A stretch of 5,896 nt of DNA from Rhodospirillaceae bacterium (GTDB lineage: Bacteria > Pseudomonadota > Alphaproteobacteria > JABSOH01), in NCBI GenBank assembly GCA_020629355.1, contig JAHDDM010000084.1:1-5896 (forward strand), given 5' to 3'. Shown here piece after piece: positions 3 to 5,896 of this stretch. The position numbers and the translations under genes are program-made. Each line of letters begins with the position of its first letter. The stretch's first letter is position 1. The notes beneath the pieces are model-generated. The model ran no database searches, was not told the DNA's origin, and saw only the letters and a list, made by a program, of their open reading frames with translations.

Positions 3-158
3 CGAGTACGCAAAAACCAAGCACCAGCAAACTTTGCCATCATCAAACACGCTGCTATGAACTATATCAAAAGACTGCAAGACAAAAGATCACTACGCGC
101 CAGACGCAAAATCGCGGGATGGAACAATCAATTCTTGCTCAAAATCATCAAGGGATAA
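3..158 (+). CDS. ISAs1-family (DDE) transposase, C-terminal fragment cut by the window edge
   Basis: Reading frame 3 is open from the left edge to TAA at 156-158 and gives 51 residues, starting RVRKNQAPANFAIIKHAAMN. The pattern (AP)ANFAI(I)KHAAMNYIK...(R)A+RK.AGW.N.FLLKI matches the end of ISAs1/H-repeat-type transposases, where HAPEN.A.LR..ALN.L is followed by K.KR..AGWD..YLLK. This enzyme cuts and joins the element ends during transposition. The catalytic DDE residues lie upstream, outside the window, so whether the full gene is intact cannot be judged. The visible part has no frameshift or internal stop, and the stop lies 19 bp before the IS tip, so the 3' end looks complete. Confidence 0.8.
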   Translation, partial: RVRKNQAPANFAIIKHAAMNYIKRLQDKRSLRARRKIAGWNNQFLLKIIKG

Positions 159-268: not shown

Positions 269-394
269 ATGCGTGTAGCCAGTTCACTGAAAACTTTGAA
301 AAAACGCCACAAAGATTGCCGTTTGATACGTCGTAAAGGTCGGGTCTATGTCATCAACAAGACCAACCCGCGCATGAAAGCCCGCCAAGGCTAA
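269..394 (+). CDS. rpmJ: 50S ribosomal protein L36
   Basis: This 41-residue protein is bL36, a small basic protein of the large ribosomal subunit. It begins [18 protein letters not shown], has the central [11 protein letters not shown] block, and ends NPRMKARQG, a C-terminus common in alphaproteobacteria. It has a single cysteine (Cys17), so it is the form without the Cys/His zinc site. The start is ATG 269: the protein from there has the normal bL36 length, and a weak purine-rich ribosome site (aaagagaa, 256-263) lies just upstream. A longer reading from TTG 197 would put the -35 box inside the coding region and add unrelated residues. The gene stands alone, is read from its own candidate promoter beside the IS end, and converges on the mutase-like gene, 16 bp away. 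Confidence 0.93.
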
Positions 395-410
395 AGCAGC
401 GTTTTCCCAA

Positions 411-2009
411 TTAACGTTTCCAGGGTCGTTTTGGCTTTGGTTTATCTTCGATAATCGTAGTGGCGTTGGCCTTACGGATGCTGCGCCAATGGCGTGAGGT
501 AAAGTCTATCTCTTCACGATCGGCATCAGAAATTGCCTTCAGAGCCTTGGCCTTGGCAGAGCCCGTCAAGGCGGTTTCTTTGGTCTCCAAAGTTGGCTTG
601 ATTTCTTGTGGCTTGGTGGTCTCGTTACCGATCAAGGAAAAATATTGTTGGAATACTGCAGAGGTTTCCGTAAGCCCACCTTCGCTGGTTGCGGCAATAT
701 CCAAGACCAGTTGGGTTTTATTGTTGTGTTCCAGGCAATGTAACCACCAAAAGCCTTGGTCATTATCCACGCGAAGGCCATCCAGATCGTTGAAAGAAAC
801 TTTATTCAGCATCAAGCGCTTGCGGATAGCCTGAATGACCGTATCGGGCGCATCATGTTCGAAATACCGCCTTGGCAAAGTCACATGATCTTGAAAACGG
901 TGATAAAAACTGCTGAGATTCTCGTTACTTGTGCCAAGCAGGTTCAGCAAGGTCACGGCACTAAAAAGCCCGTCATCAAAAGCCATGAAATTATAATGTT
1001 TGCCAAAAACATAATGACCGTTACCGCCGTAAGCCAAATTGGCGTTTGCACTGCCGAGTTTCTCAATGACACTGCCTAACCCCACTGGGGCAAATTCCAT
1101 CTTGCCGTTTTTCTCAAGACATTGCTTGATTGCAGTGGGGCAGTCCATACCCGCAACAATTGTCGAATCGGGCTGTGTTTTCAGTAACTGCTGGCAGAAC
1201 AATGCGCATAATCTGTGCGATTCCCACAGTCTGCCTTGATGATCAACCACAGCAATTTGCGTGCAATCCGCGTTAATTATAATACCCAAGTCGCATTTTT
1301 CCTCAATCACCACCTCAGTAACCGTAGCGATTCGTGTTGCTGTGAAACTATCTGGCAACTCAAGGCCAAATTGCGCATCAAGCTGATCATTCATCATCAA
1401 ATGTTCGCCAGAAATCCCATCGGACAGCTCGGATAGAACCATACATGCTGCGCCTCCACAAAGATCCCAAGCGACTTTGAATGGGCGTTTCGAATGGACG
1501 TTTTGCTTGAGTTTTTTGATATATAGCTCAAGAACATTACCGTCTAACACGCCACCGCGCTCTTTGTGCCAACTGCCGTTTGCGGCTAAAGCTGTCAGGC
1601 GTTGCAGCCGATTCCCGTAAAGAGGCACACCATCAGCGGAAAGGCGAAAACCATTGATATCGTGATGATCACTACCTCCAGTGATCATAATGCTTGCGGC
1701 GTTCAGGCAATGGGCGCTGAACTGTACCGCCGGAGCAGGCGCAACTCCAGCGCGCATGACATAGCATCCTGATGCCGCAAGGCCGCGACACATTTCGGTT
1801 TCAAGAATTGCTGAACTGGCGCGATTGTCGATACCAACAATGGCGAGGCATTGATCCTTGGTTTTCAGCATTGTTCCAAGGGTGCAGCCGATAGCCAACG
1901 CATCGTTTGCGTTCAGAGTTTGGCCTATTTCTCCGAAGATACCATCCCTCTGTATGGCGGCATCATTGATTGCGTGGCCTTTGTTGTGTTTGTAGCTACG
2001 TTTATTCAT
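411..2009 (-). CDS. Phosphohexomutase-fold protein with degenerate active site (probable pseudoenzyme or divergent paralogue of PMM/PGM)
   Basis: The 532-residue protein follows the alpha-D-phosphohexomutase plan through its four domains (VGIDNRASS at 58-66, GVAPAPA at 88-94, IMIT...NGFRL at 107-123, DLGI at 240-243, FDDGLFSA at 344-351, DGLRVD at 410-415). Active enzymes interconvert hexose 1- and 6-phosphates using a phosphoserine, a Mg-binding DGDxDR loop, a sugar-binding GGExSGH loop and a phosphate-binding RxSNT loop. Here these read TGGSDHH (110-116; Gly112 where Ser is expected, Ser113 one place later), NADCTQ (246-251), AYGGNGH (326-332) and HCLEHNNKT (424-432). The N-terminal YDIRG-like motif reads DGIFG (22-26). 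Residues from about 463 on form an extra, lysine-rich tail ending KPKPKRPWKR. The frame is uninterrupted, so this is not a decayed gene. The start at 2009 lacks a clear ribosome site. It is divergent from petA and convergent with rpmJ. Family membership is fairly sure; loss of mutase activity is inferred and the real function is unknown. Confidence 0.8.
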   Translation of the reverse strand: MNKRSYKHNKGHAINDAAIQRDGIFGEIGQTLNANDALAIGCTLGTMLKTKDQCLAIVGIDNRASSAILETEMCRGLAASGCYVMRAGVAPAPAVQFSAHCLNAASIMITGGSDHHDINGFRLSADGVPLYGNRLQRLTALAANGSWHKERGGVLDGNVLELYIKKLKQNVHSKRPFKVAWDLCGGAACMVLSELSDGISGEHLMMNDQLDAQFGLELPDSFTATRIATVTEVVIEEKCDLGIIINADCTQIAVVDHQGRLWESHRLCALFCQQLLKTQPDSTIVAGMDCPTAIKQCLEKNGKMEFAPVGLGSVIEKLGSANANLAYGGNGHYVFGKHYNFMAFDDGLFSAVTLLNLLGTSNENLSSFYHRFQDHVTLPRRYFEHDAPDTVIQAIRKRLMLNKVSFNDLDGLRVDNDQGFWWLHCLEHNNKTQLVLDIAATSEGGLTETSAVFQQYFSLIGNETTKPQEIKPTLETKETALTGSAKAKALKAISDADREEIDFTSRHWRSIRKANATTIIEDKPKPKRPWKR

Positions 2010-2041
2010 GGTCGTTACTGTAATATGTCGTTGAAAGTTGC

Positions 2042-2078
2042 CCCTGACAAGGAAATTCGCATCAAATTCGCATCAGGG
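2042..2078. repeat. Perfect 11-bp tandem repeat inside a 6-bp inverted repeat; possible operator
   Basis: AAATTCGCATC occurs twice with no gap, at 2053-2063 and 2064-2074, giving a period of about one helical turn. The pair is bracketed by CCCTGA (2042-2047) and its reverse complement TCAGGG (2073-2078; the right arm overlaps the last 2 bp of the second copy). It lies between the divergent mutase-like and petA genes, 33 bp from the former's start codon and about 30 bp upstream of the candidate pet promoter. Its position suits a regulator-binding site for either gene, but I do not recognise the motif and binding is an inference. Confidence 0.5.
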
Positions 2079-2104
2079 AACACTGGACGGAGCGTAAAAT
2101 ATCG

Positions 2105-2132
2105 TTGCCTTTGGCGCGAAAATGTATATACC
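2105..2132 (+). promoter_or_regulatory. Candidate promoter of the petABC operon
   Basis: TTGCCT (2105-2110) resembles a -35 box, and the TATATA stretch (2125-2130) a -10 box. The best-spaced reading pairs TTGCCT with TATACC (2127-2132), 16 bp apart; TATATA itself would be only 14 bp away. It would give a leader of about 50 nt before the petA ATG at 2189. It is the best match seen in the 179-bp gap in the petA direction, but the match is imperfect. Confidence 0.3.
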
Positions 2133-2188
2133 TCTTAACCGAAGCTGTAACGAGCAGAATTAACGGATTGATCAAGGATTAAGACGAA

Positions 2189-2728
2189 ATGAGTGAAAGT
2201 GCTAATCAAGAAGACGGTGTCATCCGCCGTGATTTTCTGGCCTATACGGCTTTGAGCATGGGTGTAATTGGCACAGGTGCAGCACTCTGGCCCGTGATTG
2301 ACAGCATGAATCCAGCGCGTGATGTTCTTGCTTTAGCCAGTGTAGAAATTGATATTTCAGCAATTGCTGTTGGTCAAAGCATTACGGTGAAATGGCGCGG
2401 TAAGCCTGTATTTGTCCGTCATCGTACTGCAGAAGAAATTACCGCTGCCGAAAAAGTTAATTTGGCAGATTTGCCTGATCCACAAACCGATTCCAGTCGT
2501 GTTGAGAAACCGCAATGGTTGGTCATGGTGGGCATTTGTACCCATTTGGGCTGTGTCCCTGTAGGGCAAAAGAGTGCCGATGCCAAAGGCGATTATGACG
2601 GCTGGTTCTGCCCTTGTCATGGTTCGCACTATGATACTTCTGGCCGCATCCGTAAAGGCCCTGCACCGCGCAATCTCGAGGTGCCTCCGTACCAATTCGT
2701 CAACGATACCCTGATTAAGGTTGGCTAA
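2189..2728 (+). CDS. petA: Ubiquinol-cytochrome c reductase, Rieske iron-sulfur subunit
   Basis: The 179-residue Rieske subunit carries the [2Fe-2S] cluster that takes the first electron from ubiquinol in the bc1 complex and passes it to cytochrome c1. A twin-arginine motif (IRRDFL, 12-17) precedes a hydrophobic segment (about 18-38) that serves as Tat signal and uncleaved membrane anchor. A flexible hinge (about 43-53, [10 protein letters not shown]) follows. The cluster boxes are complete: CTHLGC at 117-122 and CPCHGSHYD at 141-149. By family knowledge Cys117, His119, Cys141 and His144 bind the cluster, and Cys122-Cys143 form the disulfide. [12 protein letters not shown] near the C-terminus is the conserved Pro loop. 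Length is normal for alphaproteobacteria. The ATG is preceded by AAGGA (2174-2178) at 10 nt. It is the first gene of petABC; its stop is 1 nt before the petB ATG. Confidence 0.96.
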
Positions 2729-2729
2729 A

Positions 2730-3983
2730 ATGAACGCATCTGCACATCCTGCTCCGGAATTTAAGAACCCTGTTGTCCGTTGGATTGACCAACGCCTGCC
2801 AATATTCACCATGCTGCACGGGGAATATGTTGTTTTCCCCATGCCCAAGAATCTGAACTATTTCTGGTCTTTTGGCGGTATGGCCATGGTGGTGCTGGTG
2901 ATCATGGTACTCACAGGCGTGGCACTGGCGATGCAATATACTGCCCACGTTGATTTAGCCTTTGACAGTGTCGAGCGGATGATGCGTGATGTCAACTATA
3001 GCTGGCTATTGCGCTATATCCATATGAATGGGGCTTCAATGTTCTTCATTGCGGTGTATATTCATATATTCCGTGCACTATTCTATGGTTCGTACAAAAA
3101 TCCGCGCGAACTGGTCTGGATATTCGGTGTCGTGATTCTGGTATTGATGATGGCCACGGCCTTCATGGGCTATGTTTTGCCTTGGGGACAGATGAGCTAT
3201 TGGGGCGCAACAGTGATCACGAATCTGTTCTCTGCCTTCCCTTTGATTGGGGAGCCTATTGTCAAATGGCTTTGGGGCGGGTTCTCGGTGGATAATCCAA
3301 CATTGAACCGATTCTTTGCTCTGCACTATCTGTTGCCTTTCGTGATTTTTGCTGTGGTCATGCTGCACGTTGCCGCAATGCATCAGGCTGGTTCGAGCAA
3401 TCCCACAGGCGTTGAGGTAAAGTCCCAAGAGGACACCATCACCTTCCATCCCTATATGACCGTCAAGGATGCTTTTGGTCTGATGGTTTTCCTGTTTGTG
3501 TTCGCGTTTTTTGTCTTTATTGCGCCAAATTATATGGGGCATCCTGATAATTATATTCCTGCCAATTCGCTCTCGACACCCGCTCATATCGTACCAGAAT
3601 GGTATTTCTTACCCTTCTACGCTATTCTACGTGCGGTGGACTTCCAGTTCCTATGGTTCGTTCCAGCAAAACTGGGTGGCGTGCTGTTGATGTTTGGTTC
3701 TCTGCTGGTGCTGGCCATGTTGCCATGGTTTGATACCTCAAAAGTACGTTCCTGCCGTTACCGCCCGATCTATCGCTGGTGTGTGATACTCTTCGTCATT
3801 GATGTTATCATTCTGGGTTATGTCGGTGGCAAACCTGCCGAGGGCGCGTATGTCGTTATTTCAAAACTTGCGACCCTGTATTATTTCGCGCATTTCTTGG
3901 TGATCACACCCGTGGTTGGCTGGATAGAACAACCGCGAAAATTACCGAACAGCATATCAGAATCGGTGCTAAAAGGCTCGTAA
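2730..3983 (+). CDS. petB: Ubiquinol-cytochrome c reductase, cytochrome b subunit
   Basis: This 417-residue membrane protein carries both quinone sites and the two b hemes of the bc1 complex. The heme histidine pairs are present: His98 and His112 on one helix, His199 and His213 on another. The 14-residue spacing on both helices is of the bc1 rather than the b6f type. The quinol-oxidation site shows [20 protein letters not shown] (147-166) and the PEWY motif (289-292). About eight hydrophobic segments are visible (for example 49-69, 102-118, 129-151, 199-216, 249-266, 316-333, 350-366, 382-398). The protein is full length, not split into b6 and subunit IV. ATG 2730 is chosen, with AAGG (2717-2720) 9 nt upstream inside the petA end. 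A TTG at 2721 in frame would add three residues and overlap petA. The spacing implies translational coupling to petA. Confidence 0.96.
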
Positions 3984-4005
3984 GATTCGTTAAGCTACAC
4001 TTTGG

Positions 4006-4833
4006 ATGTCTATGATGAATAAAATATTCTCTCTTGTTGCTGTAGCCGCTATGACGCTTGGCTCATGGACGGCACATGCCGCCAGTAGCGCGCCAGCAGC
4101 ACCCGAAATGTCCTGGCCTTCAGCGGGATATCTTGGAGCATTTGATAAATCCTCACTGCAACGCGGTTTGCAAGTCTATACTGAGGTCTGTGCCAGCTGC
4201 CACGGTTTGCGTCTGTTAAGTTACCGTGATCTGCGGGATTTGGGTCTTTCAGATACCGAAGTGAAAGCGTATGCTGCACAATACGAAGTGCTTTCTGAGC
4301 CAAATGAAGACGGCGAGCGGGTGATGAAAGCAGCACAGCCCTATGATAAATTTGTTTCGCCTTTTGCTAATGAGCAGGAGGCGCGGGCGATGAATGGCGG
4401 TGCATTACCGCCTGATCTGTCGCTGATTGTCAAAGCCCGTAATTTTGGCAAGGGCAATTTCTTTGCGAATTTCTACGACATGTTGCGTGGACGCGGCTAT
4501 GCTTCGGGTGCGGATTATATTTATGCTTTGCTCACAGGTTATGAAGACCCGCCAGCAGATGTCGAAATGGCTGAAGGAATGCACTACAATAAGTGGTTTG
4601 CAGGGAATGCTATAGCCATGGCACAGCCTATCTATGAAGCTGAGCCTTTTGCTGATGGCACACCTGCCAGTATTGAACAACAGGCAAAAGATGTTGCCTC
4701 GTTCCTGATGTGGGCATCCGAGCCTCGTCTTGAGGAACGCCGCGCTCTGGGGATTCCGGTGCTGTTGTTTATGGCGCTGTTTATTCTCGTGCTGTATCTG
4801 CTGAAACGCAGAGTTTGGCGCGATGTTCACTAA
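4006..4833 (+). CDS. petC: Ubiquinol-cytochrome c reductase, cytochrome c1 subunit
   Basis: Cytochrome c1 accepts electrons from the Rieske cluster and delivers them to soluble or membrane cytochrome c on the periplasmic side. The 275-residue precursor has a Sec signal peptide ending AHA (23-25), with probable cleavage before Ala26. The heme-binding CASCH (62-66) gives covalent ligands Cys62 and Cys65 and axial His66; the second axial ligand is probably Met205 in NAIAMAQP (201-208). A C-terminal anchor helix (250-267) is followed by basic KRRVW, as usual in this family. The start is ambiguous: ATGs at 4006, 4012 and 4015 are in frame, and the only ribosome-site-like bases (ttgga, 4002-4006) favour 4012 or 4015, changing only two or three residues ahead of the signal peptide. 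It is the last gene of petABC, 22 bp after petB. Confidence 0.95.
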   Translation: MSMMNKIFSLVAVAAMTLGSWTAHAASSAPAAPEMSWPSAGYLGAFDKSSLQRGLQVYTEVCASCHGLRLLSYRDLRDLGLSDTEVKAYAAQYEVLSEPNEDGERVMKAAQPYDKFVSPFANEQEARAMNGGALPPDLSLIVKARNFGKGNFFANFYDMLRGRGYASGADYIYALLTGYEDPPADVEMAEGMHYNKWFAGNAIAMAQPIYEAEPFADGTPASIEQQAKDVASFLMWASEPRLEERRALGIPVLLFMALFILVLYLLKRRVWRDVH

Positions 4834-4906: not shown

Positions 4907-5173
4907 ATGGCCAATATCCAATCGGCAAAAAAACGCGCACGGCAAACCATCAAACGTCAAGCGCGCAATCGCATTCAAATGAATCGCTTGCGGACATTCA
5001 TGCGCTATTGCGAACAGGCTTTGGCTTCTGGTGATGCGGCGAAAGCAGCAGAAGCATTTCGCGTGGTCACGGGTGAATTGCATAAAGCTGCTCAGAAGGG
5101 TCTGATGCACAAGGCAACCGCATCACGGAAAATTTCTCGTCTCTCCAAGCGCGTACAGGCTTTGACAGCCTAG
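4907..5173 (+). CDS. rpsT: 30S ribosomal protein S20
   Basis: The 88-residue bS20 is a basic helical protein that binds 16S rRNA early in assembly of the small subunit. The diagnostic start MANIQSAKKRARQTIKRQARN and the later HKAAQKGLMHKATASRKISRLSKRV (about 59-83) are typical; the middle is an alanine-rich helix (37-53). Length is normal for the family. ATG 4907 is chosen because MANIxSAKKR is the conserved N-terminus and AAGGAAA (4892-4898) is a good ribosome site 8 nt upstream; an in-frame TTG at 4889 would overlap that site. It is a single gene, read away from petC and convergent with livF, 13 bp apart. Confidence 0.97.
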   Translation: MANIQSAKKRARQTIKRQARNRIQMNRLRTFMRYCEQALASGDAAKAAEAFRVVTGELHKAAQKGLMHKATASRKISRLSKRVQALTA

Positions 5174-5186: not shown

Positions 5187-5896
5187 TTAGATCGCCAGAT
5201 ATTCGTGGCGAAGTTCGGTATCATCCAGCACCTGTTGTGCTGTACCATCAAAGACAACTTTGCCCGTATCCAGAATCACGGCACGGTCTGCAAGCTTCAA
5301 TGCTGCAATGGCGTTCTGTTCAACAATAATCGTCGTCATGCCCTCTGCTTTGACGTGCAGTAGGGTCTTTTCAATTTCCTGAACAATCACGGGCGCGAGT
5401 CCTTCGTAAGGTTCATCAAGCAGCAACAGCTTTACGTCTCGTGCTAAGGCGCGCGCGATAGCCAGCATTTGCTGTTCGCCACCTGAAAGGGTAATGCCTT
5501 CTTGAGCGCGGCGTTCCTCAAGACGTGGGAAAAGTGTATAAATCCGCTCAAGAGACCAGCCGATAGGTTCGGCAATTTGCGCTAATTTCAAATTCTCTTC
5601 GACTGTAAGACCAGCAATGATGCGGCGGTCTTCTGGCACAAGCACACATCCTGCACGGCTGGCCTGATGTGCCGCCATGTGATGCAAGGCTTGACCGTCA
5701 AGCCAGACCTCGCCAGCGTTGAGACTTGGATCCTCCAGCCGTGCTATAGCGCGTAAAGTCGAGGTCTTACCCGCGCCATTCCGCCCAAGTAACGCCAGAA
5801 TTTCACCCTCAGCAACGCTAAATCCAACATCCTGAACAATATAGCTTTCGCCATAGTAGGCTTGTAGATTTTGTGCTGAAAAATATGGATACTCCC
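5187..5896 (-). CDS. livF: Branched-chain amino acid ABC transporter ATPase (LivF type), 5' end outside window
   Basis: This cytoplasmic ATPase of a high-affinity Leu/Ile/Val-type importer powers uptake together with LivG, LivH, LivM and a periplasmic binding protein. The frame is open to the right edge. Walker A GRNGAGKTS lies at 5760-5786, the ABC signature LSGGEQQ at 5469-5489, and Walker B LLLLDEP at 5409-5429, followed by YEGLAPVIVQEI. The switch region reads IIVEQNA, with Gln where most ABC ATPases have His, a trait typical of LivF. AQNLQAYYGES near the N-terminus and VPEDRRI.AGLTVEENL also fit LivF. About 235 residues are visible against 237 in E. coli LivF, so only a few N-terminal residues are missing. 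A TTG at 5687 cannot be the start because Walker A is upstream of it. It is the last gene of its operon; the substrate is inferred from family, and amide or urea importers use close relatives. Confidence 0.88.
   Translation of the reverse strand, partial: EYPYFSAQNLQAYYGESYIVQDVGFSVAEGEILALLGRNGAGKTSTLRAIARLEDPSLNAGEVWLDGQALHHMAAHQASRAGCVLVPEDRRIIAGLTVEENLKLAQIAEPIGWSLERIYTLFPRLEERRAQEGITLSGGEQQMLAIARALARDVKLLLLDEPYEGLAPVIVQEIEKTLLHVKAEGMTTIIVEQNAIAALKLADRAVILDTGKVVFDGTAQQVLDDTELRHEYLAI

Follow-up and report, generated by a model that had tools for sequence, protein, structure and literature searches.

Can a phosphohexomutase whose active-site loops have all changed still be of use to the cell that keeps it? 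The question is raised by a gene on the minus strand of the window, by which we mean the whole 5,896-nucleotide stretch analyzed here (positions 1 to 5,896 of contig JAHDDM010000084.1, assembly GCA_020629355.1, from a Rhodospirillaceae bacterium). On the strength of sequence comparison and a structure prediction, we favor the view that its product belongs to a conserved family related to phosphomannomutase/phosphoglucomutase (PMM/PGM), with a predicted four-domain fold, that is likely catalytically dead because all four active-site loops are altered and that probably, on balance, acts as a protein-binding adaptor or regulator. The reuse of a dead enzyme is a known kind of event.

Altered loops on a PMM/PGM scaffold

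A preliminary description of this gene had claimed a PMM/PGM scaffold over about 450 residues with four altered loops. The scaffold was borne out by matches to Pfam PGM_PMM_I (1.6e-16), II (4.7e-10), and III (1.7e-11), all past their cut-offs, and by the Pseudomonas aeruginosa PMM/PGM, which aligns to residues 23 to 460 (E = 4.1e-42). The NCBIfam PgmG model scored 250 bits, below the curated cut-off of 600 for an equivalog. Together, these scores place the family assignment far from chance. Homology extends over all domains, and the four-domain fold is predicted to be intact in a structure model of the window protein, which replaced a first, poor AlphaFold model built from seven rows (predicted local distance difference test score, 58.9). 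Pfam PGM_PMM_IV found no match in any of the seven family proteins introduced below, and P0007 is the only one of them in which Pfam also misses domain 3.

The four loops, at residues 110 to 115, 246 to 251, 326 to 332, and 424 to 432, read in the sequence as had been described (Table 1), and none retains the pattern of an active enzyme (TxSHNP, DGDxDR, GEMSGH, and RxSNT, respectively). By pattern, all four loops are intact in 120 of 120 active relatives among the matches listed (of 8000). Across the family, the phosphoserine column still holds Ser in three of seven members (P0002, P0005, and P0006) and has lost it in four, but the His and Asn that follow are lost in all seven and the Pro in six. 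Among the Mg-loop residues, P0007 alone has the first Asp, all seven have the middle Asp (D248), and no member has the last Asp or the Arg. Both Glu and Ser are gone from every sugar loop, in which the following Gly persists in six members and the His in four. In the phosphate loop, Arg survives in a single member, P0006, which has a gap at the Ser, Asn, and Thr positions; none of these three is retained in any member. More broadly, a set of 55 active relatives shows conservation of 95% or more at 164 positions, of which 48 are kept in all seven pseudoenzymes and 90 in two or fewer. In view of the known mechanism, mutase chemistry by this family is very unlikely, given that the phosphoserine-loop His and Asn, two of the three Mg-loop Asp residues (in six of seven members), the Glu and Ser that bind sugar, and the residues that bind phosphate have been lost.

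A conserved family under purifying selection

Six further full-length members, P0002 to P0007 (77, 71, 71, 60, 48, and 37 to 39% identity), all with altered loops, were recovered when about 5.8 billion proteins were searched. A profile search added none to these six, and the next-best matches, P0008 to P0011, carry SHNP and DGDxDR loops. Each protein search scored 7997 to 8000 candidates, and both family searches scored 7997. Five of the six orthologues are known only from predicted protein sequences; for P0005 the DNA itself shows an open frame, as it does for the window gene.

The second genome of the genus (G001) encodes an intact orthologue at L061:1135-2733. Compared with it, the window gene is 39% identical at codon third positions, with a nonsynonymous divergence (dN) of 0.30 (NG86) and a saturated synonymous divergence (dS); domain 2 alone gives a dS of 2.6. 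Because dN is 0.30 while silent sites are near saturation, we conclude that the protein is under purifying selection. The earlier view of the gene as a pseudoenzyme under selection, rather than a dying gene, is well supported by the six full-length orthologues with altered loops, by the separate intact PMM/PGM gene described next, and by this comparison of two family members, in which amino acid changes have accumulated much more slowly than silent ones. The pattern that would have spoken for decay, intact loops in the same gene of relatives together with frameshifts in the window, was not found.

A separate canonical PMM/PGM, which the preliminary description had suggested looking for, is encoded in the same genome with all loops intact (L002:1471-2886). 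The GlmM gene of this genome (L003:1363-2818, G000:C20) is split in two overlapping frames, perhaps by an assembly error. In G001, GlmM is intact (L063:1502-2833) and the PMM/PGM gene (L062:1272-2503, G001:C56) is split into several frames, with the four loops readable in the pieces. The G001 PMM/PGM and window-genome GlmM splits may be real losses or assembly errors. The window's metagenome-assembled genome (MAG), G000, consists of 187 contigs and is 65% complete, and G001 is 95% complete.

Constraint shifted to domains 1 and 2 and a new C-terminal peptide

Domain limits were drawn from Pfam and the structure model, and invariant positions were counted in the seven-member family (Table 1). 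Domain 1 is the most constrained, and domain 3, the former sugar-specificity domain, is the least. In 2000 random sets of seven drawn from 50 active enzymes with similar mean identity, the mean invariant fractions of domains 1 to 4 were 0.28, 0.29, 0.35, and 0.30. The ratio of domain 3 to domain 1 is about 0.12 in the pseudoenzymes and was never below 0.745 in the active-enzyme sets. Furthermore, of the columns that vary among active enzymes, those invariant in the pseudoenzymes number 13 of 36, 9 of 44, 0 of 20, and 1 of 30 in domains 1 to 4, respectively, which makes 22 of 80 in domains 1 and 2 versus 1 of 50 in domains 3 and 4 (Fisher P = 9e-5). In held-out sets of seven active enzymes, newly fixed columns averaged 0.2 to 0.5%.

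The domain and loop comparison used 55 active rows, with P0008 to P0010 left out. For the tree and the controls, 49 of 56 loci from the class passed loop filtering and de-duplication, so that the active set is itself selected by its loops; the pseudoenzymes were trimmed to 470 residues, and P0009 served as the outgroup and was kept out of the controls (50 rows). The seven loci left out comprise four repeats, two with SHLP (L007 and its repeat L057), and one with GEVSGH (L029), the last three being otherwise canonical. The L007 enzyme (L007:1501-2802, G017:C8) is a class PMM/PGM in which SHLP stands for SHNP in the phosphoserine loop.

Beyond domain 4, a poorly conserved linker leads to a new motif near the C terminus, and 12 of the 67 tail positions are invariant across the seven proteins. 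Comparison of the tail with Pfam and the PDB gave no significant match (best E values, 0.11 and 0.56). The tail search covered 385 genomes of the class, drawn from a larger group, and scored up to 18 candidates in each; the motif was found only in the two that carry the pseudoenzyme gene. The tail helix of the window protein is somewhat amphipathic: its moment is 0.53, shuffled versions average 0.27, and 3% of them reach 0.53. Sequence comparison shows constraint in this family to be shifted to domains 1 and 2 and to this new C-terminal peptide.

The 14 cysteines that had been remarked on as many for a cytosolic enzyme were counted again and confirmed. The six orthologues have 9 to 14 each, and the 120 active relatives listed have a mean of 4.7 (range, 2 to 11). 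No more than 5 of the 14 (C42, C74, C101, C184, and C239) are shared by every family member, and C74 and C239 are present in related active enzymes too. No reason was found why the family should have two to three times as many cysteines as its active relatives.

Origin of the family

A tree of 58 rows unites the seven pseudoenzymes in a single clade (100/100) and places it next to the f105 family PMM/PGM (99/96); the genome's own PMM/PGM groups elsewhere (95/94). This position led us to reject a recent duplication of the own PMM/PGM as the source of the gene. Among the matches listed, those near f105 carry names such as Aestuariispira and Marivibrio. Given the long stem of the pseudoenzyme clade (3.79), a long-branch warning from the program, and a bootstrap that had yet to settle, the placement is provisional and the origin uncertain.

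The order JABSOH01 has been described from the sponges Ianthella basta, Hexadella dedritifera, and Vazella pourtalesii and includes "Ca. Luteria ianthellae" (PMC10947273). Because G000 and G001 are filed in one genus, and from the order's name, we infer that the window's genome belongs to this sponge-derived order. That the gene is present throughout the order is only a guess, since two of its genomes were examined. A type III system has been reported for "Ca. Luteria" (PMC10947273), and a secreted effector was considered and rejected: the single FHIPEP gene of each genome scores above the cut-off as FlhA and below it as SctV, so no injectisome was found in either genome.

What the protein may do

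The proposal of an adaptor or regulator draws on the domains that have been kept or newly fixed, namely domains 1 and 2 and the tail, and on a precedent in Bacillus GlmM, which pairs via its domains 1 and holds the cyclase CdaA with helices of domain 2, domain 4 not being needed (PMC8573169). Domains 1 and 2 would form the platform that holds a partner protein, with domain 1 perhaps serving for pairing as in GlmM dimers. The tail would be a short linear docking motif on a poorly conserved linker, making a second contact with the partner. Candidate partners are the cell's own PMM/PGM, its own GlmM, or an unrelated protein. A CdaA-like cyclase is probably not among them, because the diadenylate cyclase domain DAC (PF02457) was found in neither of the two genomes (65% and 95% complete, so that a miss is possible; a control for the same model gave a signal in 12 of 14 cases, 11 of them above the cut-off) and because the GlmM contact residues are not shared. 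Regulation of a diadenylate cyclase was dropped as a candidate function for want of a DAC domain in either genome.

Several observations weigh against this proposal. The control sets span families, whereas the pseudoenzymes all belong to a single clade, some of them being near relatives, and their count of invariant columns is raised by common descent; since the active sets do not form one clade, the only internal control for ancestry is given by domains 3 and 4 of the pseudoenzymes themselves. Conservation of domains 1 and 2 could also reflect a residual ligand or a requirement of folding, and domain 4 retains conserved residues too (helix 388 to 401). The tail helix (residues 495 to 515) is of low confidence in the model, and its amphipathic moment, 0.36 to 0.53 in the other six members, is clear in some members only. 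The acidic CdaA contacts of GlmM (D151, E154, and D194) fall, by simple offset, near pseudoenzyme columns 155, 158, and 198, which are Leu or Val, Asn or Ser, and mixed; without the acidic residues the GlmM-CdaA interface is not shared. Finally, the gene neighborhood names no partner and, L36 aside, differs between the two genomes.

Among the three roles suggested in the preliminary description, scaffold and regulator are the ones we favor, and ligand sensor is disfavored. A dead mutase that went on binding a hexose phosphate or bisphosphate in its former cleft, and so signaled the level of that ligand, would find a parallel in PGM5, which can bind substrate without mutase activity (PMC7761743), and the predicted fold would allow it. 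PGM5, however, has a strictly conserved sugar loop and an almost strictly conserved metal loop (PMC7761743), whereas the pseudoenzymes have lost the sugar-loop Glu and Ser in seven of seven members and the phosphate-loop Arg in six and keep 5 of 110 positions in domain 3. As the sugar domain is the most relaxed of all, we regard a sensor of the old ligand as improbable. New chemistry in the same cleft by other residues (for example, D248, G111, D117, N119, or the invariant cysteines) seems quite improbable as well. D248, D117, N119, G120, and five cysteines are invariant, and the cysteine count is raised across the whole family, but catalysis in the cleft should presumably require conserved polar residues of domains 3 and 4 as well, and in the old loops there none is conserved in all seven members; the first and last Asp of the Mg loop are both gone in six.

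A special, prozyme-like case of an adaptor would be a subunit that uses domain 1 to pair with an active enzyme of its own cell, PMM/PGM or GlmM, and tunes the activity of that enzyme. Dead paralogues that activate partner enzymes are known (PMC5201418 and PMC3663545), and the genome has a gene for each of the two active enzymes, the GlmM gene being split in this assembly. We nevertheless hold this case to be doubtful, as PMM/PGM of the P. aeruginosa type is a monomer and the tree puts the pseudoenzyme nearer to the f105 PMM/PGM than to the own copy, so that a partnership with the latter would be no leftover of a recent duplication. On its side is also the fact that domain 1, the most conserved part of the pseudoenzyme, is the pairing domain of GlmM (PMC8573169). 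A decaying gene or a sequencing artefact might be suspected from the fragmentary MAG and from the other split genes in both MAGs (GlmM at L003 and PMM/PGM at L062). Seven full-length proteins on different contigs, a dN of 0.30 with near-saturated silent sites, and a conserved new tail led us to reject a dying gene and leave decay or artefact highly improbable.

Extending the adaptor or regulator reading, we tentatively propose, with somewhat less assurance than we have in the reading itself, that throughout an order of likely sponge-symbiotic Alphaproteobacteria a phosphohexomutase became a dedicated noncatalytic regulator, with domains 1 and 2 as a new binding platform, domain 3 freed, and a unique C-terminal docking helix, and that this is the first such bacterial family. 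Among the open-access papers listed for dead or altered phosphohexomutases and for their quaternary structure, no bacterial phosphohexomutase pseudoenzyme was found. To our knowledge, the dead member of this superfamily is vertebrate PGM5, in which most of the active site survives. In the family described here, nearly all catalytic, metal, sugar, and phosphate residues are lost, yet selection is strong and constraint lies in other domains. If the proposal is true, it would show the wholesale reuse of a common metabolic fold, likely to bind protein, and metabolic control in an uncultured, likely sponge-associated order would become open to test.

Neighborhood of the gene

The L36 and pseudoenzyme genes lie tail to tail in both genomes of the genus (window and G001 L061:973-1095/1135-2733). 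The pet operon adjoins the pseudoenzyme gene in the window only; in G001 it lies elsewhere (L074), with aconitase and coproporphyrinogen oxidase genes. A partner named by the neighborhood was rejected, since L36 is the common neighbor in both genomes and the pet operon is not. A promoter and terminator scan of window positions 380 to 2250 found promoters no more numerous than in shuffles.

At window positions 3 to 155 there is a 51-codon frame with no Pfam match, which we take to resemble the C-terminal end of an insertion sequence transposase. In G001, a BREX-like defense locus (L061:4028-16181, G001:C90) encodes a BrxC/PglY-like DUF6079 protein, a PglXI-type methylase, and PglZ, with a relaxase gene further on; some 1.3 kb separates this locus from the pseudoenzyme orthologue.

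Table 1. Positions of the pseudoenzyme gene, its parts, and other genes, in window coordinates unless a locus is named
Feature	Position	Strand	Remarks
Pseudo-phosphohexomutase gene	411..2009	minus	ATG start, 532 codons plus stop, no internal stop
Domain 1, residues 1-145	1575..2009	minus	most constrained; 56/145 positions invariant in seven-member family
Domain 2, residues 146-262	1224..1574	minus	33/117 positions invariant
Domain 3, residues 263-372	894..1223	minus	former sugar-specificity domain; 5/110 positions invariant
Domain 4, residues 373-465	615..893	minus	fold kept in model; 18/93 positions invariant; no PGM_PMM_IV match
Former phosphoserine loop, residues 110-115	1665..1682	minus	TGGSDH in place of TGSHNP
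Former Mg loop, residues 246-251	1257..1274	minus	NADCTQ in place of DGDGDR
Former sugar loop, residues 326-332	1014..1034	minus	AYGGNGH in place of AGEMSGH
Former phosphate loop, residues 424-432	714..740	minus	HCLEHNNKT in place of RASNT
New C-terminal motif, residues 491-512	474..539	minus	KAISDADREEIDFTSRHWRSIR; 12 positions invariant in 7/7
Ribosomal protein L36 gene (41-aa type)	269..394	plus	tail-to-tail neighbor of pseudoenzyme gene
Rieske, cytochrome b, and cytochrome c1 genes (pet operon)	2189-4833		ordinary neighbors
S20 gene	4907-5173		
ABC ATPase gene	5187-5894		
FHIPEP genes	L075:1366-3498 and L076:1357-3498		one per genome; flagellar export rather than injectisome

Comparison with known systems

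The P. aeruginosa PMM/PGM (PDB 1k35/1pcj) shares homology over about 450 residues and the predicted four-domain fold with the window protein, which differs from it in the four altered loops, the added C-terminal motif, and a score below the PgmG cut-off. PGM5 (aciculin), a vertebrate phosphoglucomutase paralogue reported to be inactive, is alike in being an inactive-looking paralogue beside an active one. PGM5, however, retains most loop residues and binds glucose 1-phosphate (PMC7761743), whereas in the pseudoenzyme, which is bacterial and much more divergent, the metal, sugar, and phosphate residues are gone and the substrate-binding loops are not retained. A contrary statement has PGM5 promoting the conversion of glucose 1-phosphate to glucose 6-phosphate (PMC8079189).

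The glucose-1,6-bisphosphate synthases (Slr1334, cd05800) offer another member of the phosphohexomutase family with a regulatory output (PMC9426568), but Slr1334 is an active phosphotransferase. GlmM as an inhibitor of the cyclic di-AMP cyclase CdaA/DacA is likewise an active enzyme, and its CdaA-contact residues are not common to the pseudoenzyme. The pseudoenzyme is predicted to share its phosphohexomutase fold, and the domains that are constrained in the pseudoenzyme, 1 and 2, are those that serve pairing and binding in GlmM.
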